From the IMG/VR virus record IMGVR_UViG_3300009151_000152, positions 1 through 39,762 of that record: 39,762 bases of DNA, one strand, 5' to 3'. Made by a program: the position numbers and the translations under genes. Of this stretch, positions 6,271-24,838 are shown piece by piece (position 1 is the stretch's first letter; each line of letters begins with the position of its first letter). The notes under the pieces were generated by a model. It was not told the DNA's origin and did not search any database. It was given only the letters and a program-made list of their open reading frames with translations. Source of the DNA: a virus.

Positions 6271-6299
6271 TTGCCTTATCGTAAATTATTGTGTATATT
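6271..6299 (+). promoter_or_regulatory. Sigma70-like promoter of uvsW
   Basis: TTGCCT (6271-6276), 17 bases, TATATT (6294-6299), then seven bases to the ATG at 6307. The predicted transcript starts at or one base before the start codon. Confidence 0.6.
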
Positions 6300-6306
6300 A
6301 ATACTA

Positions 6307-7752
6307 ATGCTGTGCAAGATTGTAATTCGTGACGAAGTAAATTGTAAACTTGAAGGGCTTGATGCGGATACTCGCCGTAGGCTTGTGGCCAAGTTCAAGT
6401 ATGAAGTGCCATATGCTCGCCATCTGCCAAGCGTTAAGTTAGGACGTTGGGATGGCAAGGTTGCGTACTTTCAATTAGGTGGTAGTACCTATATCAATCT
6501 ACTGCCTGATATCATTGAATATCTCACTGAACGCAATTGGGAATTTGAAATAGAAGACAATCGTTCATCTCGTCAAACATTCGAATTTACTCAGGTAGAC
6601 GAAAGCACATTTGCACATAAGACATGGCCAAAAGGTCATCCTGTCGCTGGTCAACCAATAGTACTACGTGATTATCAAATTGAAATCATCAATAAGTTTC
6701 TTGGTAATACACAGTGTGTACAGAATGTAGCCACTGGTGCTGGCAAAACTATCATGACAGCAGCTTTGAGCCTTATGGTTGAACCATATGGTCGTTCTAT
6801 TGTTATTGTTCCAAGCAAAAGTTTAGTTCTACAAACAGAAGAAGATTACAAAAATCTTGGGCTAGATGTTGGTGTTTATTTTGGTGAACGCAAAGAATTA
6901 GGTCGCACACATACTATCTGCACATGGCAAAGCCTCAATAGTCTTTACAAGAGCACTAAAGGTACAGGCAATGAGTGGACCATGATGCTTAATGTTGCAG
7001 CAGTTATTGTTGACGAGGTGCATCAGGCAAAGGCAGAAGTTCTCAAGTCAATGCTTACTACTGAATTTGCTGATGTTCCTATTCGTTGGGGATTGACTGG
7101 AACTATTCCCAAAGAAGCATTTGAACAAGTTGCACTTAAAGTAGCAATTGGTGATGTTATCAGTCAACTTAGTGCTAGCACCCTACAAGAGGCTGGTGTG
7201 CTGTCTAATTGCCATGTAAATATTGTGCAAACAGTTGAGCACAGTGATTTTAGAAATTACCAAGAAGAATTAAAATACCTTACAACGAATAAAGATCGTC
7301 TTGACCATATGGCAAGCCTTCTTGGTGAAGTTATTAAAACAGGAAACACACTTGTGCTAGTAGACCGCCGTGAATGCGGTGATGAATTGGTTGCACGACT
7401 GCCCAACAGTGTGTTTGTTCAAGGAGACATGAAGAATGCAAAACGCAAAGAACATTATGATGAGATTGCTAACGTCAGTGACAAAATCATTGTTGCAACT
7501 TATGGAGTGGCTGCAGTTGGCATTAATGTTCCTCGTATTTTTAATCTTGTTCTTATTGAACCTGGCAAGTCATTCGTTCGTGTCATTCAATCTATCGGTC
7601 GTGGCATTCGTAAGGCAGAAGACAAAGACTTTGTTCAAATCTGGGACTTAACTGCTGATTGTAAATTTGCCAAGCGCCATCTTACAAAGCGTAAACAATT
7701 CTACAAAGAAGCTAACTATCCATTTACGCAAGAAAAGAGTATCTATAAATGA
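6307..7752 (+). CDS. uvsW: UvsW-like recombination DNA/RNA helicase
   Basis: This 481-residue superfamily 2 helicase matches T4 UvsW in length and layout. A small N-terminal domain with KLGRWDGKVAYF is typical of UvsW. RDYQ (Q motif) is followed by Walker A ATGAGKT near 142-148, DEVH at 236-239, LTGT, and a second RecA domain ending in QSIGRGIR. UvsW unwinds branched DNA and R-loops and shifts T4 from origin-dependent to recombination-dependent replication. I place the start at 6307: the frame continues upstream to a TTG at 6271, but that lies in the promoter -35 box and encodes a hydrophobic stretch absent from the family. No Shine-Dalgarno is present. Confidence 0.93.
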   Translation: MLCKIVIRDEVNCKLEGLDADTRRRLVAKFKYEVPYARHLPSVKLGRWDGKVAYFQLGGSTYINLLPDIIEYLTERNWEFEIEDNRSSRQTFEFTQVDESTFAHKTWPKGHPVAGQPIVLRDYQIEIINKFLGNTQCVQNVATGAGKTIMTAALSLMVEPYGRSIVIVPSKSLVLQTEEDYKNLGLDVGVYFGERKELGRTHTICTWQSLNSLYKSTKGTGNEWTMMLNVAAVIVDEVHQAKAEVLKSMLTTEFADVPIRWGLTGTIPKEAFEQVALKVAIGDVISQLSASTLQEAGVLSNCHVNIVQTVEHSDFRNYQEELKYLTTNKDRLDHMASLLGEVIKTGNTLVLVDRRECGDELVARLPNSVFVQGDMKNAKRKEHYDEIANVSDKIIVATYGVAAVGINVPRIFNLVLIEPGKSFVRVIQSIGRGIRKAEDKDFVQIWDLTADCKFAKRHLTKRKQFYKEANYPFTQEKSIYK

Positions 7753-14235: not shown

Positions 14236-15234
14236 ATGGAAATTACTGACCAAATCATGCAGCATCTGCCATGGAAACGCAAATCCACGCCTAGTAAGTG
14301 GATAAGTTTCAATGCTGTCTGCTGTCATCATAATGGTCATGCAGCAGATACTCGTGGGCGTGGCGGCGTTATGCCTTCACCAGAGGGTGGTATCACGGCA
14401 CACTGCTTTAATTGCCATTATACTGCTTCTTGGCAACCTGGCAATCGACTATCTTATAAGATGCGGCGTTGGATGTCATGGCTTGGTATGGCTGATGATA
14501 CTATCTCTCGCCTTAGCCTATTTGCGTTAGCACAATCTACCCCAGATTATCCACGAGTAGAAGCACGTGAGTTACCCACTTACGAGCCTCGTGAGCCATG
14601 TCCTGGTCGCCCTATTACAAGTTGGTTAAATGATGGATATATCAATGAAAACGATTATAACAGTCTTGAAATGGCTATCAATTATCTTGATTCTAGAGGT
14701 TTTGGTGATAAGTTATCTGATTTTTACTGGACAGACGATCCTGCTTTAAGAAACCGTGTGTTGGTTCCATTTACTTGGAAAAACAAACCTATGGGTTTCA
14801 GTGGGCGGCTGTTTGAAGATGGCAAGAAGAAAATAAAATACTTCTCTAATTATCCAAGCAATATGATATGGGGTTATGACCGTCAACACAAGGATGCGAA
14901 ATTTTGTATTGTCGTTGAAGGACTGCTTGATGCTGTCGCCATCGGTGCGCTTGCAATTTGTAGCAATGAAATTAATGATGGTCAGGCTCAAGTTATCGAA
15001 ACACTTGACCGTGATATCATTGTTGTGCCTGATCGTGATAAAGCTGGTATGGCAATGGTCAACGCTGCTCTAAAATATGGTTGGGGTGTAGCATTTCCAG
15101 AATGGGAAAACGGAATTAAAGATGTAGCAGATGCTGTTGCTAAGTATGGAACACTGTTCACCATGCGTAGTATTCTCAATAGTGTGGAATCAAATAACTT
15201 AAAGATTCGATTGATGGCGAAAAAATGGCTATAA
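14236..15234 (+). CDS. 61: DNA primase (T4 gp61-like)
   Basis: This 332-residue protein has an N-terminal zinc ribbon (C29/C30, H35 and C57-x2-C60, with HCFNCHYTASW) and a TOPRIM-type catalytic core: IVVEGLLDAVAIG with the invariant glutamate near residue 230 and VVPDRDKAG with the DxD near 265. It makes RNA primers for lagging-strand synthesis with the gp41 helicase encoded 1.6 kb downstream. In T4 these genes are close together; here a radical SAM gene and a sulfotransferase-like gene lie between them. The radical SAM gene overlaps its 3' end by 10 bases. It is leaderless from its own early promoter. Confidence 0.88.
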   Translation: MEITDQIMQHLPWKRKSTPSKWISFNAVCCHHNGHAADTRGRGGVMPSPEGGITAHCFNCHYTASWQPGNRLSYKMRRWMSWLGMADDTISRLSLFALAQSTPDYPRVEARELPTYEPREPCPGRPITSWLNDGYINENDYNSLEMAINYLDSRGFGDKLSDFYWTDDPALRNRVLVPFTWKNKPMGFSGRLFEDGKKKIKYFSNYPSNMIWGYDRQHKDAKFCIVVEGLLDAVAIGALAICSNEINDGQAQVIETLDRDIIVVPDRDKAGMAMVNAALKYGWGVAFPEWENGIKDVADAVAKYGTLFTMRSILNSVESNNLKIRLMAKKWL

Positions 15235-16133
15235 AAAGTATTACATTAGAAGTTACTAATATGTGCACCCTAAAATGTTTACGGTGTGCAAGAACTGATT
15301 TCATAAAAAAATATCCGAAGGGGTGGAAAAATCACAACTTAAATTTACAAGATTTAAAAAATTTTCTTGATATTGATTTTAAAAATACATCGTTTACTAT
15401 TTGTGGTAATTACGGCGATGCCATATATTACAATGATTTATTTCCACTGTGTCGTTGGCTAAAAGAAAATGGTTCTACTATTAAATTGCATACTAATGGT
15501 AGTTATAAAACTGCAGATTGGTGGAATAACCTAGCATCAATTCTCGATGAAAATGACGAGGTAAATTGGGCTATTGATGGCACACCTGAAAATTTCACTG
15601 AGTATAGAGTCAATGCGGATTGGGATTCAATTAAGACAGGCATTGATATTATTACAAAAACTAAAATACAGACTGTATGGCGGCATATCGTGCTTAAGTT
15701 CAATCAAGGCACTGTTTCTGAGACTGAAACACTTGCAAAATCTTTAGGTATTAAAAAATTTAGTATTGTTCACAGTGACCGCTGGGAGGAAAATGATGCC
15801 TTAAAACCTGATAGTAATTTTATAAATGCGGCTGATGAATTTAAAACTGCTTGGAAAAAAAATGTCAGAAATTTAGATATTTCTCCAAAATGTTTAACAG
15901 GCGAAACTAGTCATTTTATAACAGCAGAAGGATATTATACACCATGCTGTTATATAGCTGACCATCGTTTTTATTATAAAACCAGATGGGGTAAAGAAAA
16001 ACAAAAATATAGTATTAAAAATACAAAATTTACAGAAATTTTATCAAGACCTGATGTAATACAATATTTCAAGGATTTGACAAATAATATATGTGATGAT
16101 GTTTGCAGGTTTAGTTGTCCAAAGATAGGATGA
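15225..16133 (+). CDS. Radical SAM protein (first of three)
   Basis: The 302-residue protein has the radical SAM cluster motif C14-x3-C18-x2-C21. A barrel follows with segments such as FTICGNYGDA, IKLHTNGS and VNWAIDG, which match the usual GGE, ribose and beta6 region positions. Further cysteines in the C-terminal third (CLTG, PCC, then CDDVCRFSC) suggest an auxiliary cluster of the SPASM or twitch type. Substrate and reaction cannot be told. The gene is visibly richer in AAA, ATT and TTA than its neighbours, in line with recent acquisition. It overlaps the primase 3' end. Confidence 0.8.
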   Translation: MAIKSITLEVTNMCTLKCLRCARTDFIKKYPKGWKNHNLNLQDLKNFLDIDFKNTSFTICGNYGDAIYYNDLFPLCRWLKENGSTIKLHTNGSYKTADWWNNLASILDENDEVNWAIDGTPENFTEYRVNADWDSIKTGIDIITKTKIQTVWRHIVLKFNQGTVSETETLAKSLGIKKFSIVHSDRWEENDALKPDSNFINAADEFKTAWKKNVRNLDISPKCLTGETSHFITAEGYYTPCCYIADHRFYYKTRWGKEKQKYSIKNTKFTEILSRPDVIQYFKDLTNNICDDVCRFSCPKIG

Positions 16134-16137
16134 TGTC

Positions 16138-16857
16138 GTGAATAATATTAATAGTGACACGTTAGTATTTGTTGTTTATTCTCCTGGTGCTTTTGGAAGT
16201 TTTCTTTCTTTGGTTCTAGAGCAGTCAGAACATGTAGATCATCTATGGGACGAAACAGTTATTAATAACTTTGATTCTGATGGAGCAGCACATATAAAAT
16301 TAAGCAATTGGATTAAAAATTTTCATGACGGCAATGACATTGATAGATGGGTAGAATTGCCAGATAATGATAAAATTGAGTATATTGAATCTCGGCTTTT
16401 TAAAGTTCCGACAAACAATTTAAAAATTCATAGGTTTACTGTTCCAAGTGCCATTCCAGAATTGATTAAAATTTTTTCCAAATCAAAAATTATATATATT
16501 CAGTATGATGAACAAAATAAAGAACTTGTGGTTAATAATTTTATTAACAAAATAATAAAGACTGACAGATTTGCTAAGAATAAATTGTCCAGTATTATCA
16601 ATAAGGTACTCTCAAAGGCATCAGACATTGAAAAATTTAAATATTATCGTAAGATTGCCATTGACAGACTTGATAAAATTAACTTGAAAACTATTCCAAT
16701 AGGTGTTAAAATAGTTCCTATTGCTTCATTTTTATCATGGGAAGATTTTTTGGTAGAGTATCAACAAATATGTTCATATTTAAAAATTAAACCAGAATTA
16801 CATAAGGTCAAAGAATTGTATAATGAATTTATAAAGGTAAACGGATTGAATGGCTAA
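16138..16857 (+). CDS. Sulfotransferase-like or P-loop-like hypothetical protein
   Basis: The start is GTG, with AGGA upstream. The 239-residue protein opens with FVVYSPGAFGSFLSLVLEQ, similar in position and shape to the PAPS-binding loop of sulfotransferases (PxxGGTSL-like), and later has KIIYIQYDEQ and a C-terminal SWEDFLVEYQQICSYL typical of that family's end. The PAPS-binding residues are not clear, so this is a tentative call. It sits between a radical SAM gene and the helicase and overlaps the helicase start by eight bases. It is AT-rich like the radical SAM genes. Confidence 0.35.
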   Translation: MNNINSDTLVFVVYSPGAFGSFLSLVLEQSEHVDHLWDETVINNFDSDGAAHIKLSNWIKNFHDGNDIDRWVELPDNDKIEYIESRLFKVPTNNLKIHRFTVPSAIPELIKIFSKSKIIYIQYDEQNKELVVNNFINKIIKTDRFAKNKLSSIINKVLSKASDIEKFKYYRKIAIDRLDKINLKTIPIGVKIVPIASFLSWEDFLVEYQQICSYLKIKPELHKVKELYNEFIKVNGLNG

Positions 16858-18247
16858 ATCATTTGATGCTGGCATCCAAAAACTTTTCATTGAAATGATG
16901 CTAAGTGATCCGCAAAGTTATGTGCGGGTGCAGAATATATTCAATCCAAACAACTTTGATCGTAGTTTACAAAATGCTGCGAAGTTTATTAAAACTCACT
17001 GTGAGCAGCATACTATTATGCCGTTGCTTGAACAGATAAACGCTGCTACAAACAATACTTTTGCACCTGTGCCTGGCATGACTGATGACCATACTGCATG
17101 GTTCTTAGAAGAATTTGAAGATTTTACCAAGCAAAAAGAACTTGAGCGAGCCATTCTTGCAGCAGCAGACCTATTAGAGAAAGGTGATTTTGATCCTGTT
17201 GAAAAATTGATAAAAGATGCAGTACAAATCAGTCTAACCAAAGACCTTGGCACAGATTACTTCCTTGATCCTATTGCTCGTCTTACTAAGATTAAAGATA
17301 ATAACGGACAAACAAGCACAGGTTGGAATACACTTGACCAAAAACTATATGGTGGTTTTAATCGTGGAGAGTTGAATATCTTTGCTGGCGGTTCGGGTTC
17401 GGGTAAATCACTGTTCATGCAGAATATTGCATGCAATTGGGTATTGGCAGGTCTCAATGGCGTTTACATTACGCTTGAATTGAGTGAAGAATTGACTGCT
17501 ATGCGTATTGATAGTATGTTGACCAATACAGCAAGTAAGGATATTTTCAAGAGCATTGAAGATATTGAGATCAAGGTTAGAATGGTTGGCAAGAAGAGTG
17601 GTAAGTTCCAAATCAAATATCTGCCAGCACAAAGCACTATCAACGATGTTCGCTCATATTGTAAAGAACTTCAAGTCCGCACAGGTCGCAAACTTGACTT
17701 TATCATGATTGACTATCTTGATTTGTTGATGCCAGTTAGTGCAAAAGTTAGCCCAAGTGATTTGTTTGTTAAGGACAAATATGTCTCCGAAGAAATTCGT
17801 AACTTTGCTAAAGAAATGGACATTCTACTTGTTACCGCATCACAGTTAAACCGTGCATCGGTTGAAGAAGTAGAGTTTGATCATTCGCACATTTCTGGCG
17901 GTATTTCTAAGATTAATACTGCTGATAATCTATTCGGTATCTTTACATCACGTAGTATGCGTGAACATGGCAAGTATCAGCTACAATTAATGAAAACTCG
18001 TAGTAGTAGTGGTGTTGGTCAGAAAGTTGAACTTGAATTTGATATTGATAGTCTGCGTATTCGTGATATGCCAGATGACGGAGAAGCGCATCAGTTTAAA
18101 AAACCTGTTAGCAGTATCTTTGATGGTGTCAAGAACAAGAGTACAGTTGTACCAAGTAGCGAACCAGAAGAAAGCGGCAAGATAACAGCAGATGTAAATA
18201 GCAGTAAGTTAAAACAAATGCTGGCTAACATCAAACAGAAAAATTAA
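16850..18247 (+). CDS. 41: Replicative DNA helicase (T4 gp41-like, DnaB family)
   Basis: The protein has 465 residues. The RecA-like domain has Walker A GGSGSGKS at 180-187 and Walker B FIMIDYLDLL near 283-292, with an arginine-finger region around FTSRSMREHG. A short N-terminal domain (about 1-130) would bind the primase. gp41 unwinds DNA 5' to 3' at the fork. The last 573 bases of the gene are repeated at 19428-20000. The start is ATG at 16850 behind AAAGG. The radical SAM gene at 18250 starts two bases after its stop. Confidence 0.93.
   Translation: MAKSFDAGIQKLFIEMMLSDPQSYVRVQNIFNPNNFDRSLQNAAKFIKTHCEQHTIMPLLEQINAATNNTFAPVPGMTDDHTAWFLEEFEDFTKQKELERAILAAADLLEKGDFDPVEKLIKDAVQISLTKDLGTDYFLDPIARLTKIKDNNGQTSTGWNTLDQKLYGGFNRGELNIFAGGSGSGKSLFMQNIACNWVLAGLNGVYITLELSEELTAMRIDSMLTNTASKDIFKSIEDIEIKVRMVGKKSGKFQIKYLPAQSTINDVRSYCKELQVRTGRKLDFIMIDYLDLLMPVSAKVSPSDLFVKDKYVSEEIRNFAKEMDILLVTASQLNRASVEEVEFDHSHISGGISKINTADNLFGIFTSRSMREHGKYQLQLMKTRSSSGVGQKVELEFDIDSLRIRDMPDDGEAHQFKKPVSSIFDGVKNKSTVVPSSEPEESGKITADVNSSKLKQMLANIKQKN
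17669..18241 (+). repeat. Direct repeat copy A (3' end of helicase gene)
   Basis: This stretch aligns without any gap to 19428-20000 (offset 1759). By hand count about 74 of 573 bases differ, mostly in third codon positions, with about six amino acid changes. The differences are not spread evenly: 18026-18183 matches with one mismatch. Confidence 0.9.
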
Positions 18248-18249
18248 TA

Positions 18250-19398
18250 ATGACTTCATCATCATCATTTTGCTACCAACCTTGGACAGGTATTGATATA
18301 GATAATAGTGGTTCTATTAGACCTTGTTGCAAGTTTAATACTAAAATTGCAGAGGATTGGGAAGGTTATAATATCAATAATATGAGTATTGATGATTATA
18401 AAAAAAGCAACGGGTTGGCAAAATTAAAAGAATCTTTTGTATCTGGTCAAAAACCAGCAGCATGTGAGCGTTGTTGGAAAGATGAGGCAGCAAATTATCC
18501 TAGTAAACGAACAATGGACGGCGAGCGATGGAAGAAAGAATTTAATGACTTTAATTTAACTGCATCAAATACGTTACTATTGACGCTGCCACTTGGTAAT
18601 ATATGTAATTTAAAATGCAGAATTTGTAGTCCAAACTCAAGTAGTAGTTGGAAAAAAGAATTTCAAGATATCTATAATATAAAGTATAAGGTAGCAGATT
18701 GGGCCAACAATGATTTTGTATGGCAATCATTGTTGGAAATGACCGATGATATTTTAGAATTACATTTACATGGTGGTGAACCATTTTTATATGACAACGA
18801 GAAACATTTAGAAATCTTAAATAAAATTTCTAATTCTCCCAATGCCAGTAAAATTAGATTACATTATAATACAAATGGTACTGTATTCCCAGATCAAAAA
18901 TATTGGGATGCATTTGACAAGATAGGATGGGTTGATATTCAACCTAGTATCGATGATATTGGTGCTCGATTTGAGTATAATAGAAAAAATGCCAAATGGG
19001 ATGAAGTTAAAGAAAACTTAATAAAATATAGAGACTATATTAATATTCGTCCCAATATGCAGTTGAGCATCAGCACAACAGTTAGTGTGTTTACAATCTA
19101 TTATCTTGACGAGATGTTTACATATTTTATGGATAACAAACTACCAAAACCTTGGTTGGGAAAATTATCTAAACCTGAGTATTATAGATGTTCTATATTT
19201 CCATCTGAGCACAAAGAAATTATCAAGAATAAGTTATTGTCTAGTAGTCATGAGGATTTGCAAAACATAAGTCAATGGTTAAACGATGATGACTCTGTGC
19301 TGTTGGATAAATTTAGGGAAAACATTAAATTACACGATGCGTACAGAAAAGAATCATTTAAACAAGTATTTCCCGAAATTTATTCATGGTTGTTCTAA
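18250..19398 (+). CDS. Radical SAM protein with twitch/SPASM-type Cys (second of three)
   Basis: This 382-residue protein has the cluster motif C119-x3-C123-x2-C126 and GGEP at 175-178, preceded by a cysteine-containing N-terminal region (C8, C26, C27, C72 and C75 in FCYQPW, RPCC and CERC) that looks like an auxiliary cluster site. This layout matches the twitch-domain radical SAM proteins I know from marine phages. The reaction is unknown; peptide or sugar modification are both possible. It starts two bases after the helicase stop and ends 24-30 bases before the second helicase copy, so it lies between the two direct repeats. Confidence 0.8.
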   Translation: MTSSSSFCYQPWTGIDIDNSGSIRPCCKFNTKIAEDWEGYNINNMSIDDYKKSNGLAKLKESFVSGQKPAACERCWKDEAANYPSKRTMDGERWKKEFNDFNLTASNTLLLTLPLGNICNLKCRICSPNSSSSWKKEFQDIYNIKYKVADWANNDFVWQSLLEMTDDILELHLHGGEPFLYDNEKHLEILNKISNSPNASKIRLHYNTNGTVFPDQKYWDAFDKIGWVDIQPSIDDIGARFEYNRKNAKWDEVKENLIKYRDYINIRPNMQLSISTTVSVFTIYYLDEMFTYFMDNKLPKPWLGKLSKPEYYRCSIFPSEHKEIIKNKLLSSSHEDLQNISQWLNDDDSVLLDKFRENIKLHDAYRKESFKQVFPEIYSWLF

Positions 19399-19421
19399 CC
19401 AAGATACAAATTCAATAGGAT

Positions 19422-20003
19422 AAACATCTGCAAATTCGTACAGGTCGTAAGGTAGACTTTATCATGATTGACTATCTTGATCTGCTTATGCCTGTTAGCG
19501 CCAAAGTTAGCCCAAGTGATTTGTTTGTTAAAGACAAATATGTATCGGAAGAAATTCGTAACTTTGCTAAAGAAATGCAAATCTTGTTGGTTACAGCATC
19601 GCAGTTAAATCGTGCTAGTGTAGAAGAAGTAGAGTTTGACCATAGTCATATTAGTGGTGGTATTTCTAAAATCAACACTGCGGATAATCTATTTGGTATT
19701 TTTACTTCTCGCAGTATGCGTGAACATGGCAAGTATCAGTTACAGATTATGAAAACTCGCTCTTCAAGTGGTGTTGGACAAAAGGTTGAACTTGAATTTG
19801 ATATTGATAGTCTGCGTATTCGTGATATGCCAGATGACGGAGAAGCGCATCAGTTTAAAAAACCTGTCAGCAGTATCTTTGATGGTGTCAAGAACAAGAG
19901 TACAGTTGTACCAAGTAGCGAACCAGAAGAAAGCGGCAAGATTGTGGCAGATATAAACAGCAGTAAACTAAAACAAATGCTTGCTAATATTAAACAGAAA
20001 TAA
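19422..20003 (+). pseudogene. Truncated second copy of helicase gene 3' end
   Basis: The frame is open from about 19419 to the stop at 20003 and encodes the last 190 or so residues of the helicase, from LQIRTGRKVDF to the C-terminus. It lacks the Walker A domain, and no start codon with Shine-Dalgarno precedes it; the first in-frame ATG is at 19464. About 18% of bases differ from copy A except in one tract, but nearly all changes are silent, so the copy evolved under selection as a functional helicase before being placed here. I read it as a scar of recombination, though a short C-terminal product is possible. Confidence 0.85.
19428..20000 (+). repeat. Direct repeat copy B (second helicase 3' end)
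   Basis: Gap-free partner of 17669-18241. The segment 19785-19942 is identical to 18026-18183 except at 19868. Confidence 0.9.
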
Positions 20004-20019
20004 AAACTTAAATAAAATT

Positions 20020-21033
20020 ATGATTTCTCTTAACAATATTAAACATTTACATATGGAATTTAGTTCACTGTGTAATGCAAGATGTCCATTGTGTCCCCGT
20101 AATTTATTTGGTTATCCATACAATAGTGGATATGAAGAAACTAGCTTAACACTTGAATTAATTAAAAAATCATTTTCGCCGCAGTTTGTTAATCAACTTG
20201 ACCGTGGTATACTAGTTAATGGAAACTTTGGCGATTTTACTGCTAATTTAGAATCACTACAAATATTGGATTATTTTAAAACTTGTAATCCAAAACTAAA
20301 AATACAAATCAGCACAAACGGCAGTGCAAGAAATACAGATTTTTGGCATGAACTTGGTAAATTTTCAAATGCTATTGTAGAGTTTTGTTTGGATGGATTA
20401 GAAGATACACACGCAATATATCGTCAAGATACAAATTTTAATCGAATACTTAAAAATGCAAAAGCATTCATGGATGCTGGTGGTGTTGCTATATGGAAGA
20501 TGATACGTTTTGACCATAACAAGCACCAAGTTGAAGAAGCAGAACAGCTTTCTAAAAAATTAGGATTTTCAAAATTTCAACTTGAGGACCATGGCAGAAA
20601 TACTGGACCAGTGTTTGACCGTGATGGTAAATTAATTCGCACTATGGGCAACTACACTGGATTTACTGATATTGAAAATATAATTAAATTTCAAAGTGAT
20701 TCAAATAAAATTTATTCACATAAACCATATGTTCAAGGTTTGACTCATTCTTGTTTTACAAAAGATAATAATTCAATTTATATTGCAGCAAATGGATTAG
20801 TTTATCCTTGTTGTTATATGGCATTTAATCCGTTAACATATGACCAAGGTTTTAACGGATTTATTAATCGTCAAATTAAACCATTAGTAAAACATAATAG
20901 TTTACATGAACATGATTTAGAAACTTGCATTGGTTGGTTTAGCAGTGTTGAAAGTGCATGGACACGGGATAGCTATGAAAACGGTCGTTTAATACAATGC
21001 GATCAGGTGTGTGGAAAATTTGAAACCGCATAA
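20020..21033 (+). CDS. Radical SAM protein (third of three)
   Basis: The ATG at 20020 is chosen because the upstream in-frame TTG at 19981 lies in the helicase copy. The 337-residue protein has C18-x3-C22-x2-C25 (CNARCPLC), a barrel with VNGNFGDFTANLE, QISTNGS and VEFCLDG, and C-terminal cysteines (YPCCYMA, then CDQVCGKF) suggesting an auxiliary cluster. It is closer in layout to the protein at 15225 than to the one at 18250. It follows a helicase 3' end, just as the gene at 18250 does, so the position after gp41 seems to be a cargo slot. Confidence 0.8.
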   Translation: MISLNNIKHLHMEFSSLCNARCPLCPRNLFGYPYNSGYEETSLTLELIKKSFSPQFVNQLDRGILVNGNFGDFTANLESLQILDYFKTCNPKLKIQISTNGSARNTDFWHELGKFSNAIVEFCLDGLEDTHAIYRQDTNFNRILKNAKAFMDAGGVAIWKMIRFDHNKHQVEEAEQLSKKLGFSKFQLEDHGRNTGPVFDRDGKLIRTMGNYTGFTDIENIIKFQSDSNKIYSHKPYVQGLTHSCFTKDNNSIYIAANGLVYPCCYMAFNPLTYDQGFNGFINRQIKPLVKHNSLHEHDLETCIGWFSSVESAWTRDSYENGRLIQCDQVCGKFETA

Positions 21034-21038
21034 AACCT

Positions 21039-21046
21039 CATAAATA
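21039..21046 (+). promoter_or_regulatory. Late promoter CATAAATA
   Basis: Three bases separate it from ATG 21050, so the expected 5' end (about 21052) lies inside the ATGGAG. This favours an alternative start downstream (TTG 21065). Confidence 0.6.
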
Positions 21047-21049
21047 TTC

Positions 21050-21313
21050 ATGGAGTTTAATAATTTGCGCAAACAATCTCGTAGTATTCTTGATGAGTTG
21101 AGCCAATTAGGGGTTGGTAAGAATACTGGATTAGTATTAGAAAGTCGTGCTAACCATATCATCAATAGTGCTATTAATCTTATTAATCAAATCCGTGAAA
21201 CCTATGATGCTCCAGAGGCAGATGAATTAGAACGCCGACTATTAAATAGTATACGTGCGCAAGAACCTGCCAAGTTTGTTCGTGGGTTAAGGAAGATTAA
21301 TGAGAGCAAATGA
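21050..21313 (+). CDS. Small coiled helical protein, virion region
   Basis: The 87-residue frame from ATG 21050 is almost all helical (RSILDELSQLG, INLINQIRETYDAPEADELERRLLNSI). The true start may be TTG at 21065: the late promoter would begin the mRNA at GGAG (21052-21055), which is well placed for 21065 but not for 21050. I do not recognise the family. The next gene starts inside its 3' end. Confidence 0.55.
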   Translation: MEFNNLRKQSRSILDELSQLGVGKNTGLVLESRANHIINSAINLINQIRETYDAPEADELERRLLNSIRAQEPAKFVRGLRKINESK

Positions 21314-22145
21314 AATATTATCCGAAGTAACAGACCCAAAAGCAACTCCTCCAAAACCAAACGATCCTGAATTTCAGAAGAGTAAAGAATCATTTGTAAA
21401 AATTATTAATCAAGCAGTTGCTGAATATAATGCTCAATTATCTAATTTAAGAAAAACATACGCTGACAAATATAAAGAAATAATAAGTGACAATGACACT
21501 TTAGTTGATAATATAAAAGATGCAATATTTTCTTTCTTAATAAACAAGGGAAATGGTCTTATTCTTGATGCAGATAAAGATTTGTTAAGCAGAACATTTA
21601 ATATTAAATTGCCTCCAAAATCTCCTAATCCAACAGTTCCTCCTACTACAACTGGCGCACCATCTATTTCATCACCGCCACCAAAAACACCATCAGAACG
21701 TGAATTTGATATATTAGATTTGGATAATACCAGCAATGATAATACAAAAAAACCTAAATTTAAAGTGGTTAACAGTGGCAAAGAACCTAAGCAAAATTCA
21801 CTTATTGAAGGTATCTTTCAAATAGATCGCAATACTGGAAAGATAACAATAGACCCAAAAGACATTGATAAGTTGGCAAAACTTACTACTTTTATTTGGT
21901 ATAGAAATCGTAACCTTAAAAATACAAATCCAACTGTATTTGCTAAACAAGCTGGTGTACAATCAACTGGTCGTTCACTAACTAATCGTGTAAACAACAA
22001 TGCACTTGCGAAAGCAGTTGGCGTAGACCCACAAAATCCAGAATTTTTACAATCACTCGTCAATGCTGTTGCAAATAAAGATAACCTTATCAATTTCTTA
22101 GAAAAAGTACGTTCTGTAGCAGGCATCAAGCCGCAAACAAAATAA
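21300..22145 (+). CDS. Virion protein with putative capsid-targeting N-terminus
   Basis: The 281-residue protein begins MRANEILSEVTD, similar to the short cleavable head-targeting peptides of T4 internal head proteins (consensus ending in L/I-x-E). Residues 23-65 form a coiled helix, 100-130 are proline and serine rich, and the C-terminal part is a helical domain with repeated Asn. This looks like an internal or scaffold head protein. The start overlaps the preceding gene by 14 bases and has AAGGAAG upstream. Confidence 0.5.
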   Translation: MRANEILSEVTDPKATPPKPNDPEFQKSKESFVKIINQAVAEYNAQLSNLRKTYADKYKEIISDNDTLVDNIKDAIFSFLINKGNGLILDADKDLLSRTFNIKLPPKSPNPTVPPTTTGAPSISSPPPKTPSEREFDILDLDNTSNDNTKKPKFKVVNSGKEPKQNSLIEGIFQIDRNTGKITIDPKDIDKLAKLTTFIWYRNRNLKNTNPTVFAKQAGVQSTGRSLTNRVNNNALAKAVGVDPQNPEFLQSLVNAVANKDNLINFLEKVRSVAGIKPQTK

Positions 22146-22174
22146 CGGATAACCGCACTATTTTCTCTAACATT

Positions 22175-22182
22175 TATAAATA
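22175..22182 (+). promoter_or_regulatory. Consensus late promoter TATAAATA with leader hairpin
   Basis: Full T4 consensus TATAAATA. The expected start is near 22188, where GCGT (22189-22192) pairs with ACGC (22201-22204): a 5'-terminal hairpin in the leader, then TTTGGAG before ATG 22223. Confidence 0.8.
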
Positions 22183-22222
22183 CTATTAGCGTAATAATAA
22201 ACGCAAATTTTGGAGAATTAAA

Positions 22223-22645
22223 ATGGCAGATTTTTATCGTATTAATGGTAACGCTGGTGTAGTTGGTGATGGCAAGGGTTTTATCTCAACAGCTATCGGT
22301 GCTAGCTTTATCGGAAAGTTCCCTGTAGCAATTGCAGGTTACATTGCAAATTCAAGTGGCACAGCACAAGACCTACGTCTTGAAAGCGGCGTTAACAATG
22401 CAATTCCTGCAATCCTAACCTCAATTTCAAGCAACGTAACTGTTCTTGCATATCAGATTGAAGCAACATCTGGTGGTAATATCAGTCTACTTCTTGAAGG
22501 TGCTGCTGGTCTTGCATCAACTGATGCTGGTATTGCAACAGTTATTCAAAACACTGTTCGCAGCCTAACCGCTGCTGGTAACAACGCAGTTGATTGCAGT
22601 GGTTCACTATTCGTGAACAAGGGCTTCAAGCTAAGCTACACTTAA
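22223..22645 (+). CDS. Probable abundant virion protein, single-gene transcript
   Basis: This 140-residue protein is Ala, Gly, Ser and Val rich with few charges (MADFYRINGNAGVVGDG start, then ISSNVTVLAYQIEATSGG). It has its own consensus late promoter, a strong TTTGGAG and a dedicated terminator, an arrangement typical of the most highly expressed virion genes. Codons are more GC- and C-ending than in neighbours (atc, ggc, aac), also a sign of high expression. I cannot name it; a head decoration or tube-like protein would fit. No family is recognised with confidence. Confidence 0.55.
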   Translation: MADFYRINGNAGVVGDGKGFISTAIGASFIGKFPVAIAGYIANSSGTAQDLRLESGVNNAIPAILTSISSNVTVLAYQIEATSGGNISLLLEGAAGLASTDAGIATVIQNTVRSLTAAGNNAVDCSGSLFVNKGFKLSYT

Positions 22646-22671
22646 TATATCCTAGATATATTACAAAGTTC

Positions 22672-22694
22672 AAGGGCGGGCAACCGCCCTTTTT
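22672..22694 (+). terminator. Rho-independent terminator
   Basis: AAGGGCGG (22672-22679), GNRA-type loop GCAA, CCGCCCTT (22684-22691), with the T-run to 22694. Confidence 0.9.
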
Positions 22695-22727
22695 CTTTGC
22701 CTAAAATAATACGCAATAAGTAAAAAT

Positions 22728-23096
22728 ATGATTCGTTGTTTATCTCTTTTTGATATAAGTCGCAGTAGTAGTGGCAAGCATACTCCAGATCAACTTAGAA
22801 ATTGGCACTGCTTGTTGCAGGCACTTAGTTTATACAGTAAATTTACTGTAGATTCTTATCCAACGCAGATATTCAGAGATATAAACGGTTTAGGTTTTGG
22901 TAAAAATTATGTTGGGCAACATAATGTATGGATATTTGATTTTGAATTACAAGACGCAGAACTTGATATGGATAAGTTATCTAATATAGTACATCAAATA
23001 CCAATGATAACCCTGTTAGAAGAAAGCGCAAACTTTCCAATTAATTGTACTGATTTATATGGCGATAATCAAAATATAGTGTTTTTATTATTATAA
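22728..23096 (+). CDS. Hypothetical protein
   Basis: The 122-residue protein is of mixed alpha/beta character with cysteines at the N-terminus (MIRCLSLFDISRSSSG) and near the C-terminus (NCTDLYG). It has a weak Shine-Dalgarno and no clear promoter; the run between the terminator and its start (22695-22727) shows no convincing -10 box. I do not recognise it. Confidence 0.5.
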   Translation: MIRCLSLFDISRSSSGKHTPDQLRNWHCLLQALSLYSKFTVDSYPTQIFRDINGLGFGKNYVGQHNVWIFDFELQDAELDMDKLSNIVHQIPMITLLEESANFPINCTDLYGDNQNIVFLLL

Positions 23097-23103
23097 CTGT
23101 CAT

Positions 23104-23111
23104 AATAAATA
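23104..23111 (+). promoter_or_regulatory. Late promoter AATAAATA
   Basis: AATAAATA 25 bases before ATG 23137 with GGAG (23128-23131) between. Confidence 0.6.
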
Positions 23112-23136
23112 GTATTTGCTACTGCATGGAGTTGTT

Positions 23137-23409
23137 ATGGCAAAGAAACCATATGAAATAGAGCGAACCAGTTTAGAAGCGCATGTCGATATCTGTGCAG
23201 AGCGTTATGAACAAATGGATACTAAAATGGACACTATGGAATTAAGACTTGCAAAGGTCGAAACCATTGTCAACGAAATTAAAAACATGTTAATTGAAAA
23301 AGAAACTTTGGCTTATAAAAAACTCGTTGGCTTAGGAATTGGCATTATTGGCTCACTACTAACAGCCCTATTGGGCTTAATATTGTATGTTGCAAAAACA
23401 CATACTTAA
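23137..23409 (+). CDS. Coiled-coil protein with C-terminal membrane anchor (XhlA-like)
   Basis: The ATG at 23137 follows GGAG at five bases; the in-frame TTG at 23116 lacks a Shine-Dalgarno. Of 90 residues, about 12-58 form a heptad coiled coil (YEQMDTKMDTMELRLAKVE) and 64-85 a transmembrane helix rich in Gly, Leu and Ile, leaving a short tail outside. This is the layout of XhlA-type proteins that act with holins in phage lysis. A holin or endolysin gene is not visible beside it, so a different membrane role is possible. Confidence 0.6.
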   Translation: MAKKPYEIERTSLEAHVDICAERYEQMDTKMDTMELRLAKVETIVNEIKNMLIEKETLAYKKLVGLGIGIIGSLLTALLGLILYVAKTHT

Positions 23410-23438
23410 TTGACACGCTGTTGCTGTTGTGATATATT
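23410..23438 (+). promoter_or_regulatory. Sigma70 promoter, leaderless arrangement, in a late-gene block
   Basis: TTGACA (23410-23415) directly after the upstream stop, 17 bases, extended -10 TGA plus TATATT (23433-23438), six bases, ATG 23445. Confidence 0.8.
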
Positions 23439-23444
23439 AATTCA

Positions 23445-23879
23445 ATGAGCAAACAATCAGCAACATTTGGAAAAGTAAAAGATTTTATCACGGATCAATA
23501 CAATCAATTGCCTGTTATGGGGGCAGTTATTGTAAAATCTGTGGTAAACGGATACAAGGTTAACGATATCCTTGTTAAAATGGATGGCAACCGATATAGT
23601 GTTGTCAAAGAAAATAGCGAAATAAGTGAATTCAATCAACGTCGCACTGCTATTTTATTTGCTGCATTAGTCAGTAAGAAGAAATATAGCGATAGCAGCA
23701 AGATATATGGATTAGATAAGCAACTTGACATTTATCTTGAAGATAAGCAGTTTTATACTATTCGTTTAAAAAACAATGACAACATGGTATATGAACATCG
23801 ACTATCTCGTGTAGAAAGCGAACTCATTATTATAGATGATCAACTGCGACAATTAGAGAAAAGTGTCGCTCTGCAATAA
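23445..23879 (+). CDS. Hypothetical early protein within the late block
   Basis: The 144-residue product is beta-rich in the middle (GAVIVKSVVNGYKVNDILVKMDGNRYSVV) with a C-terminal coiled helix (LIIIDDQLRQLEKSV). No family is recognised. Its early-type leaderless promoter, in a region otherwise served by late promoters, predicts non-structural early expression. Confidence 0.6.
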   Translation: MSKQSATFGKVKDFITDQYNQLPVMGAVIVKSVVNGYKVNDILVKMDGNRYSVVKENSEISEFNQRRTAILFAALVSKKKYSDSSKIYGLDKQLDIYLEDKQFYTIRLKNNDNMVYEHRLSRVESELIIIDDQLRQLEKSVALQ

Positions 23880-23882
23880 ATA
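23875..23882 (+). promoter_or_regulatory. Late promoter AATAAATA
   Basis: It overlaps the stop codon of the upstream gene. AAGGG (23894-23898) precedes ATG 23906. Confidence 0.6.
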
Positions 23883-23905
23883 CTAGTAAATGCAAGGGCA
23901 TCATT

Positions 23906-24838
23906 ATGTTTATTAAAGAATTTAACAATCTATCAGCAACCGAACTTAACCAACAGTTAAATAAGGTTTACAAATGGCAATTAGATTTGCAAAAAGTCAC
24001 TGAGAGTGATGCTAGTGCAATGATGAACACATTGCAAAATAAAATTAGTAGAATTAAAAAATCACCACAGGCTCACTATGCAGAGCGCAATCCAGAATAC
24101 ATGGAAGCAGTAATGGTTAGCAAAGTCCTAGAAACATGGAAGAATGAAATGGCACACGGTCGTAAAATTATCGCAGAAAAGATGAGAGCAATCAATGCAT
24201 ATTGCTCAGTTGCTCTTAACGAGCGTGAACTTTCACCTTCTGAGATGAACAATCGTGAACGTCTTGTTAAGGCTATGAAAGGCAAGAAAGGTGACTTTGA
24301 AAAGCGTTATGGAAAACGTGGCGAAGAAGTTATGTATGCTACTGCTACAAAGATGGCAAAGAATGAAAGCATTGAGTTACCGCCAGCCCTAACCGAAGGT
24401 GAAATTGAACAAGCACGTGTTACTATGGCTGCTCGTGACCTTGCTGATACTGTTCAAGATATTGTTGAAAAAATCAGCAAGATGCAAAATGAGCAACTAC
24501 CAGCACTTGTAAGTGCAATGAAAGACCAGATTGGTATGGATCAGGCTAATCAGTTTAATGAAGCTACAAAAGCTACACTTTCATCACTTCTTGACTCAGC
24601 AAATACAGCACGTGATGCACTAGATAACGCTAGCCGTGGCGTGTATGACATGGGCGGTAGTGACATGGGTGCTCCTGGTGCTATGGGCGGCGATGATTTG
24701 GGTGCTGCTCCTGATATGAATGCACCACTTGGTGGTGACGAAGCACCAATGCCTCCACGTGATGGCGAAAGTGATTTAAATGCTTCTGATGCTGCAACAG
24801 GCGGACCTGCTGAATTAGGTCGTGGTCTACGAGCATAA
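23906..24838 (+). CDS. Virion-associated protein with conserved RYGxRxxxVMYATATKMA motif
   Basis: The 310-residue protein has an N-terminus resembling a head-targeting peptide (MFIKEFNN), then a helical region. A central RERLVKAMKGKKGDFEKRYG followed by VMYATATKMAKN is a motif I recognise from internal or structural proteins of T4-like marine phages. The C-terminal 60 residues are disordered and rich in Gly, Asp, Met, Ala and Pro. Likely a procapsid core or other head protein. Confidence 0.6.
   Translation: MFIKEFNNLSATELNQQLNKVYKWQLDLQKVTESDASAMMNTLQNKISRIKKSPQAHYAERNPEYMEAVMVSKVLETWKNEMAHGRKIIAEKMRAINAYCSVALNERELSPSEMNNRERLVKAMKGKKGDFEKRYGKRGEEVMYATATKMAKNESIELPPALTEGEIEQARVTMAARDLADTVQDIVEKISKMQNEQLPALVSAMKDQIGMDQANQFNEATKATLSSLLDSANTARDALDNASRGVYDMGGSDMGAPGAMGGDDLGAAPDMNAPLGGDEAPMPPRDGESDLNASDAATGGPAELGRGLRA

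Follow-up and report, generated by a model that had tools for sequence, protein, structure and literature searches.

Why does a phage carry the 3' end of its replicative helicase gene twice, with a radical SAM gene between the two ends? The DNA that raises this question, called the window throughout, is one virus record of 39,762 nt (IMGVR_UViG_3300009151_000152, positions 1-39,762) from a large freshwater virus infecting bacteria. It encodes a DNA primase, a DnaB-like helicase, a second DNA helicase (6271-7752) and the large subunit of ribonucleotide reductase, and its closest isolates by helicase DNA belong to the PA5oct group (~69% identity). Taken together, these few genes suggest a large phage near the Arenbergviridae.

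The repeated helicase end and its radical SAM genes

The locus contains the following genes and gene parts.

16850..18247, plus strand: intact gp41-type DnaB-like replicative helicase, 465 aa (phrog_19, E=3.5e-65; PF03796), A lineage by trees
17669..18247, plus strand: copy A, the repeated part of the helicase (ungapped repeat, offset 1759)
18250..19398, plus strand: rS1, a radical SAM gene, 382 aa, with an N-terminal SPASM-like match (PF04055, E=1.8e-11; PF13186)
19428..20003, plus strand: copy B, the headless 3' end of a second helicase (L012/L013 lineage by tree), with no internal stop and no start of its own
20023..21033, plus strand: rS2, a second radical SAM gene, 336 aa (PF04055, E=4.8e-5, below the Pfam cut-off; phrog_21308, E=2e-22)
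21050..21313, plus strand: d1, which encodes a small virion structural protein and bounds the cargo slot on its downstream side (phrog_11854, E=1.7e-18)

The original prediction was that the 3' end of gp41 recurs ungapped 1759 nt downstream, that a radical SAM gene separates the copies, and that each helicase end is directly followed by such a gene. All three points hold. Copies A and B form a direct repeat at an offset of 1759 nt, with 76 mismatches in 580 nt (86.9% identity) and no gaps, and the repeat cannot be due to chance (E = 0 by blastn, E = 1e-119 for protein). Only one gene, rS1, lies between them, beginning 2 nt after the stop of copy A, and rS2 begins 19 nt after the stop of copy B. 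The predicted extent of the repeat, 19422-20003, needs revision: helicase homology begins at 19428, and the tail of a convergent gene occupies 19399-19429. The predicted ~74 differences and ~6 amino acid changes were close, since copy B itself differs from copy A at 6 residues outside the joint, with a seventh (E to H, codon 17666) derived from the donor tail; what the prediction did not capture is that the divergence is uneven along the copy. Third codon positions hold 53 of the 79 mismatches between A and B in 17663-18247.

The reading frame of copy B is open up to its own stop (20001-20003). Its first ATG is at 19464, and no start codon with an evident ribosome site was found in it; copy B is probably inert, untranslated DNA. 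Since its split from L012, one of the collected loci (L numbers), copy B has accumulated 14 synonymous and 0 non-synonymous changes of its own in 121 codons, the joint codon excepted. This pattern bears out the earlier view that copy B derives from a working helicase. With no decay visible, copy B has spent nearly its whole history inside such a gene, and the truncation is recent.

Relatives of rS1 and rS2 reach only 22-25% identity at most among 50,697 phage records, so this cargo is almost unknown in isolates. A third radical SAM gene, of the SPASM type, lies upstream of the helicase (15225-16133). None of the loci compared is closely related in DNA to the surrounding region, 15200-16800, so primase and helicase seem to be separated by a second variable slot.

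Two helicase lineages and the joint between them

In trees of 17663-18025 (363 nt), copy A groups with L005, L007 and L065 (96/95) and copy B with L012 (95/87); forcing A and B into one clade costs 49 log units and is rejected (p-AU 5.7e-6). The proposed search for the helicases nearest to copy B therefore ends at the L012/L013 lineage. The first 813 nt of the intact helicase (16850-17662) group with L005, L065, L008 and L010, and their placement with the B lineage is likewise rejected (p-AU 5e-8). On these two trees, the intact helicase belongs to one lineage up to at least position 18025, and copy B to another.

These placements bear on two ways of making the repeat within a single lineage or by an invading element. 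A tandem duplication of the helicase end in place, with later divergence of the two copies, would account for a 158-nt block in which A and B are near-identical and form sister rows. It fails over the 363 nt, where each copy has other relatives, and it does not account for the convergent-gene tail at the joint. As an origin of the copy as a whole it is refuted by the tree, and we give it virtually no probability. The original prediction had named a tree with A and B as closest relatives as the result that would count against it; such a tree is rejected over the 363 nt and is seen over the 158-nt block, where a second event, gene conversion, is needed.

Integrating elements that target gene ends enter a gene and restore its 3' end with a copy of their own. 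Had such an element entered the helicase gene and pushed the old end (copy B) downstream, the same layout would result, namely a whole gene, cargo and a displaced gene end. However, the intact helicase has a 5' part that belongs to the A lineage and not to that of the displaced end, which rules this candidate out; no second helicase end of this type occurs in 134 slots (~95 distinct), and searches against Pfam and PHROG found no integrase or homing nuclease between the copies, only rS1. We regard this route as highly improbable.

What lies at the boundary of copy B points instead to two phages. Two features are located there.

19384..19429, minus strand: truncated 3' tail of a convergent gene, 14 codons and a stop (DVYPIEFVSWLEQP*), overlapping the end of rS1; 19399-19429 matches L151
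19428..19442, no strand assigned: illegitimate crossover joint, donor CTTTAAATTTGTA versus helicase CTGCAAATTCGTA by sequence comparison

In L024, L031/L151 and L077, a convergent gene follows rS1 and overlaps its end; in L031 it encodes a 427-aa radical SAM protein (PF04055). The 31 nt between the rS1 stop and copy B (19399-19429) are identical to L151 at 28 of 31 positions, compared with 18/31 at the best other place in that locus. A similar tail follows rS1 in L032, and the tails in L077 and L032 are more diverged. At the joint itself, the sequence is ACATCTTTAAATTTGTA in the donor relative and GAACTGCAAATCCGTA or GAACTTCAAATTCGTA in B-lineage helicases. Of 13 nt, about 10 are alike and the longest exact run is 5 nt, indicating little homology at the crossover. 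The closest relatives also change across the joint: copy B goes with L012, copy A and the upstream helicase with L005/L065, and rS1 with L031 (its nearest relative is L151/L031, at 85%, where it is also directly 3' of the helicase).

Both halves of the arrangement exist separately. The order helicase, rS1, convergent gene is found in L024, L031 and L077, and an rS2-type gene stands directly behind the helicase in L012-L014, the nearest relatives of copy B; the helicase-rS2 type order recurs in L008, L011-L018 and others. These parental-type arrangements are known in relatives at 82-92%, not in the parents themselves, as the nearest helicases are 86-92% identical, the nearest rS1 is 85% identical, and neither parent is among the collected loci. 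An exact scan for the joint between copy B and rS2 returned only contigs already known and no pre-event parent.

Because two lineages meet within one contig, we considered an assembler-made chimera of two strains. The window is the sole contig spanning both copies, and assemblers struggle here: the contigs of assembly 3300009182 break at 18610/18615, and L004 ends at 18235 after three letters of the B type. In that assembly, contig 3300009182_001238 carries the end of rS1, the joint, copy B and rS2 at 100%, and contig 3300009182_001239 carries copy A and the start of rS1 at 99.985%, leaving a gap of 4 nt between the two in window coordinates. The joint (19399-19440) is thus present at 100% in a second assembly (L156/L187), which may share reads with the window. 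The proposed search of virome contigs for the junction was done as an exact scan of 2.9 million contigs, and only the L156/L187 assembly matched. Graph assemblers need shared k-mers of 21 or more, whereas the joined sequences share only ~5 consecutive bases, so that an assembler would have no shared k-mer on which to join them. The precise inclusion of the donor gene's tail at the joint also argues against an artefact, and a chimera seems to us very unlikely.

We conclude that, very probably, two co-infecting relatives crossed over illegitimately and unequally in the cargo slot between helicase and d1, and that the locus is the scar of this single event. Parent 1 would have carried helicase A, rS1 and the convergent gene (like L031), and parent 2 a helicase B ending in front of an rS2-type gene. 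Their genomes would have been joined at ~13 nt of patchy similarity, the 3' end of the convergent gene meeting the middle of helicase B. Given parents of these two kinds and the tail at the joint, one crossover can explain the gene order, and two such phages suffice. The prediction had described rS1 as an inserted gene; it does lie between the copies, yet a single crossover would place it there with no insertion into a pre-existing order. The product would have kept the whole of helicase A, gained rS1 in front of rS2, and been left with a headless helicase end, copy B. It would have been viable, since helicase, rS1, rS2 and d1 are all whole. T4-type phages replicate by recombination. The joining step here may have started in the convergent gene and entered the helicase of the other phage at very short homology, by strand invasion or by template switching.

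The rS2 allele now behind copy B is 96-99% like L157, versus 67% like L012, which suggests further exchanges near 20.2 kb. Identity to L157 across 20200-24673 is 98-99% and starts ~200 nt inside rS2, compared with ~84% before it; a further recombination joint near 20.2 kb, within rS2, is the likely reading of this step.

Sequence exchange between the copies

Identity between A and B is 82% in 17663-18025, 99.4% in 18026-18183 and 81% in 18184-18241. The central block, which the original prediction missed, defines two further features.

18026..18183, plus strand: gene-conversion patch in copy A, 157/158 identical to 19785-19942
19785..19942, plus strand: gene-conversion patch in copy B, probably the donor (identity profile and tree tests)

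Conservation does not explain the patch because relatives vary at 107 sites within it, and A and B show 1 mismatch at these 107 otherwise variable sites. In a permutation test, the contrast between 157/158 in the patch and 82% around it gave p=5e-5, the floor of the test. This pattern is the signature of later gene conversion between the repeats. Both of its copies are nearest to L012, the relative of copy B elsewhere. Grouping the patch with L005, the relative of copy A, is weakly rejected (p-AU 0.047), whereas grouping it with L012 is not (0.51); on these 158 nt, B to A is the better guess, and the conversion probably ran in that direction. Homologous recombination between the direct repeats would thus have copied the 158-nt patch, probably from B to A, with rS1 not deleted.

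The patch shows that the repeats do interact, and a direct repeat of 576 nt should favor the loss of rS1 by homologous recombination. One contig resembles a product of such an interaction. L004 (assembly 3300027741; L004:7374-7386 corresponds to window 18223-18235) is the same as copy A until 18222, then has the letters of copy B at all three differing sites (18223, 18229 and 18232), and ends at 18235. Recombination between A and B in a variant of the population may explain this contig, as may an assembly error. An exact scan for its switch from A to B returned only known contigs and did not find an rS1-free recombinant.

These observations raise the question of whether copy B, left by the same crossover, has been kept because it is useful, as an arm for gain and loss of rS1, as a conversion donor for the helicase tail, or as 5' context for the expression of rS2. 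That copy B is intact and has exchanged sequence with copy A fits such a role, as do the B letters in the tail of A in L004. Against it, copy B is young, so that absent decay proves nothing; it is found in one phage only; and it offers no evident site for starting translation. We think retention for use unlikely and hold to a crossover remnant that has since exchanged sequence with the intact gene.

The cargo slot, a second scar and known systems

We surveyed the helicase-d1 slot in 134 loci (~95 distinct; L005-L183), where it ranges from 9 bp to 4.9 kb. It is empty in 17 of the ~95 distinct slots and holds up to five genes in others. The modules include the rS2 family (43 genes), the rS1 family (26, on either strand), a DNA polymerase III alpha-like gene (24, minus strand), a gene for 295 aa on the minus strand that has no match in Pfam, and others that are rarer. 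The helicase-d1 gap is a hotspot for modular cargo. The DNA polymerase III alpha-like gene is optional cargo in L035 (1533-3236, minus strand; 567 aa) and 23 other slots; it matches PF07733 and PF17657 only and is much shorter than a full DnaE. In L135 (2316-4309), two rS2-type alleles, 74% alike in amino acids, lie head to tail in one slot.

No other partial helicase copy of the length of copy B was found in the 134 slots by blastn and profile search. One clear scar besides that of the window exists among the ~95 slots. In L143 (2444-2574), the 5' end of a d1 copy (83 nt, 96%, E=1e-31) is fused to a shrunken 3' remnant of the helicase, retained in exact pieces of 23 nt; this scar lies between two radical SAM genes, with a whole helicase and d1 outside. 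It is independent of the scar in the window and of the same kind. Behind an rS2-type gene in L172 (3405-3440) is a possible 12-residue remnant of the helicase C-terminus, too weak (E 0.8) to be counted. Judged from the two clear cases, stacking by unequal joints has happened at least twice at this slot, and most slots have no scar.

In a broader scheme, the slot would grow as one unequal crossover after another adds a radical SAM cassette to the stack and leaves part of a core gene behind; the leftover repeat would let homologous recombination trim or re-exchange the cassette, making the helicase end a recombination arm altered by gene conversion. We offer this generalization tentatively and consider it doubtful.

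The gain of cargo beside core genes in large virulent phages is usually inferred from mosaic comparisons only, the intermediates being gone. In the window such an intermediate survives: both parental sides can be recognized, a third gene has its tail trapped at the joint, and a repair patch was added later. This supports the view that one way of stacking cassettes is a single unequal crossover at a tiny stretch of homology. A caution for phylogeny also follows: the leftover copy can overwrite the core helicase gene itself, and trees based on that helicase would then be misled.

Recombination with illegitimate or limited homology feeds phage mosaicism in T4 relatives (PMC2993671) and has been quantified in temperate phages (PMC3945230); a review of T4 relatives describes the entry of new DNA via reciprocal illegitimate exchange and invasion by free 3' ends (PMC2993671). 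The window shares with these cases (PMC2993671, PMC3945230) a low-homology joint between relatives, a novel gene beside a core gene, and core functions left whole. It differs in that the joint is unequal, so that a gene end was duplicated and the tail of a third gene trapped, and in that a later conversion patch is visible. In the literature searched we found no direct precedent for a phage that duplicated part of a gene through illegitimate recombination, which does not establish that none exists. The process is known; the example is new, unusually complete and well resolved.

Three further systems resemble the slot. The hypervariable regions of pelagimyophages, which are T4-like myophages, are islands between core genes with radical SAM cassettes as gradual additions (PMC7029224); the slot in the window differs in lying at the helicase-d1 boundary of a large phage group related to PA5oct, and in retaining the readable scar of one addition. 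The Campylobacter group II phages CP220, CPt10 and CP21 carry 11-12 radical SAM genes, an exchangeable block with five of them, and repeats thought to serve recombination (PMC2853527, PMC4546147). Those repeats are arrays of units, mostly of 72-86 bp and mostly outside genes, whereas the repeat in the window is a piece of a core gene. In the Arenbergviridae and Wroclawvirus (PA5oct, Cassandra), as in the window, genes for primase, DnaB-like helicase and a small virion structural protein come in that order; Cassandra and similar isolates have an empty slot, with 40 nt from helicase to structural gene, whereas in the window it is filled.
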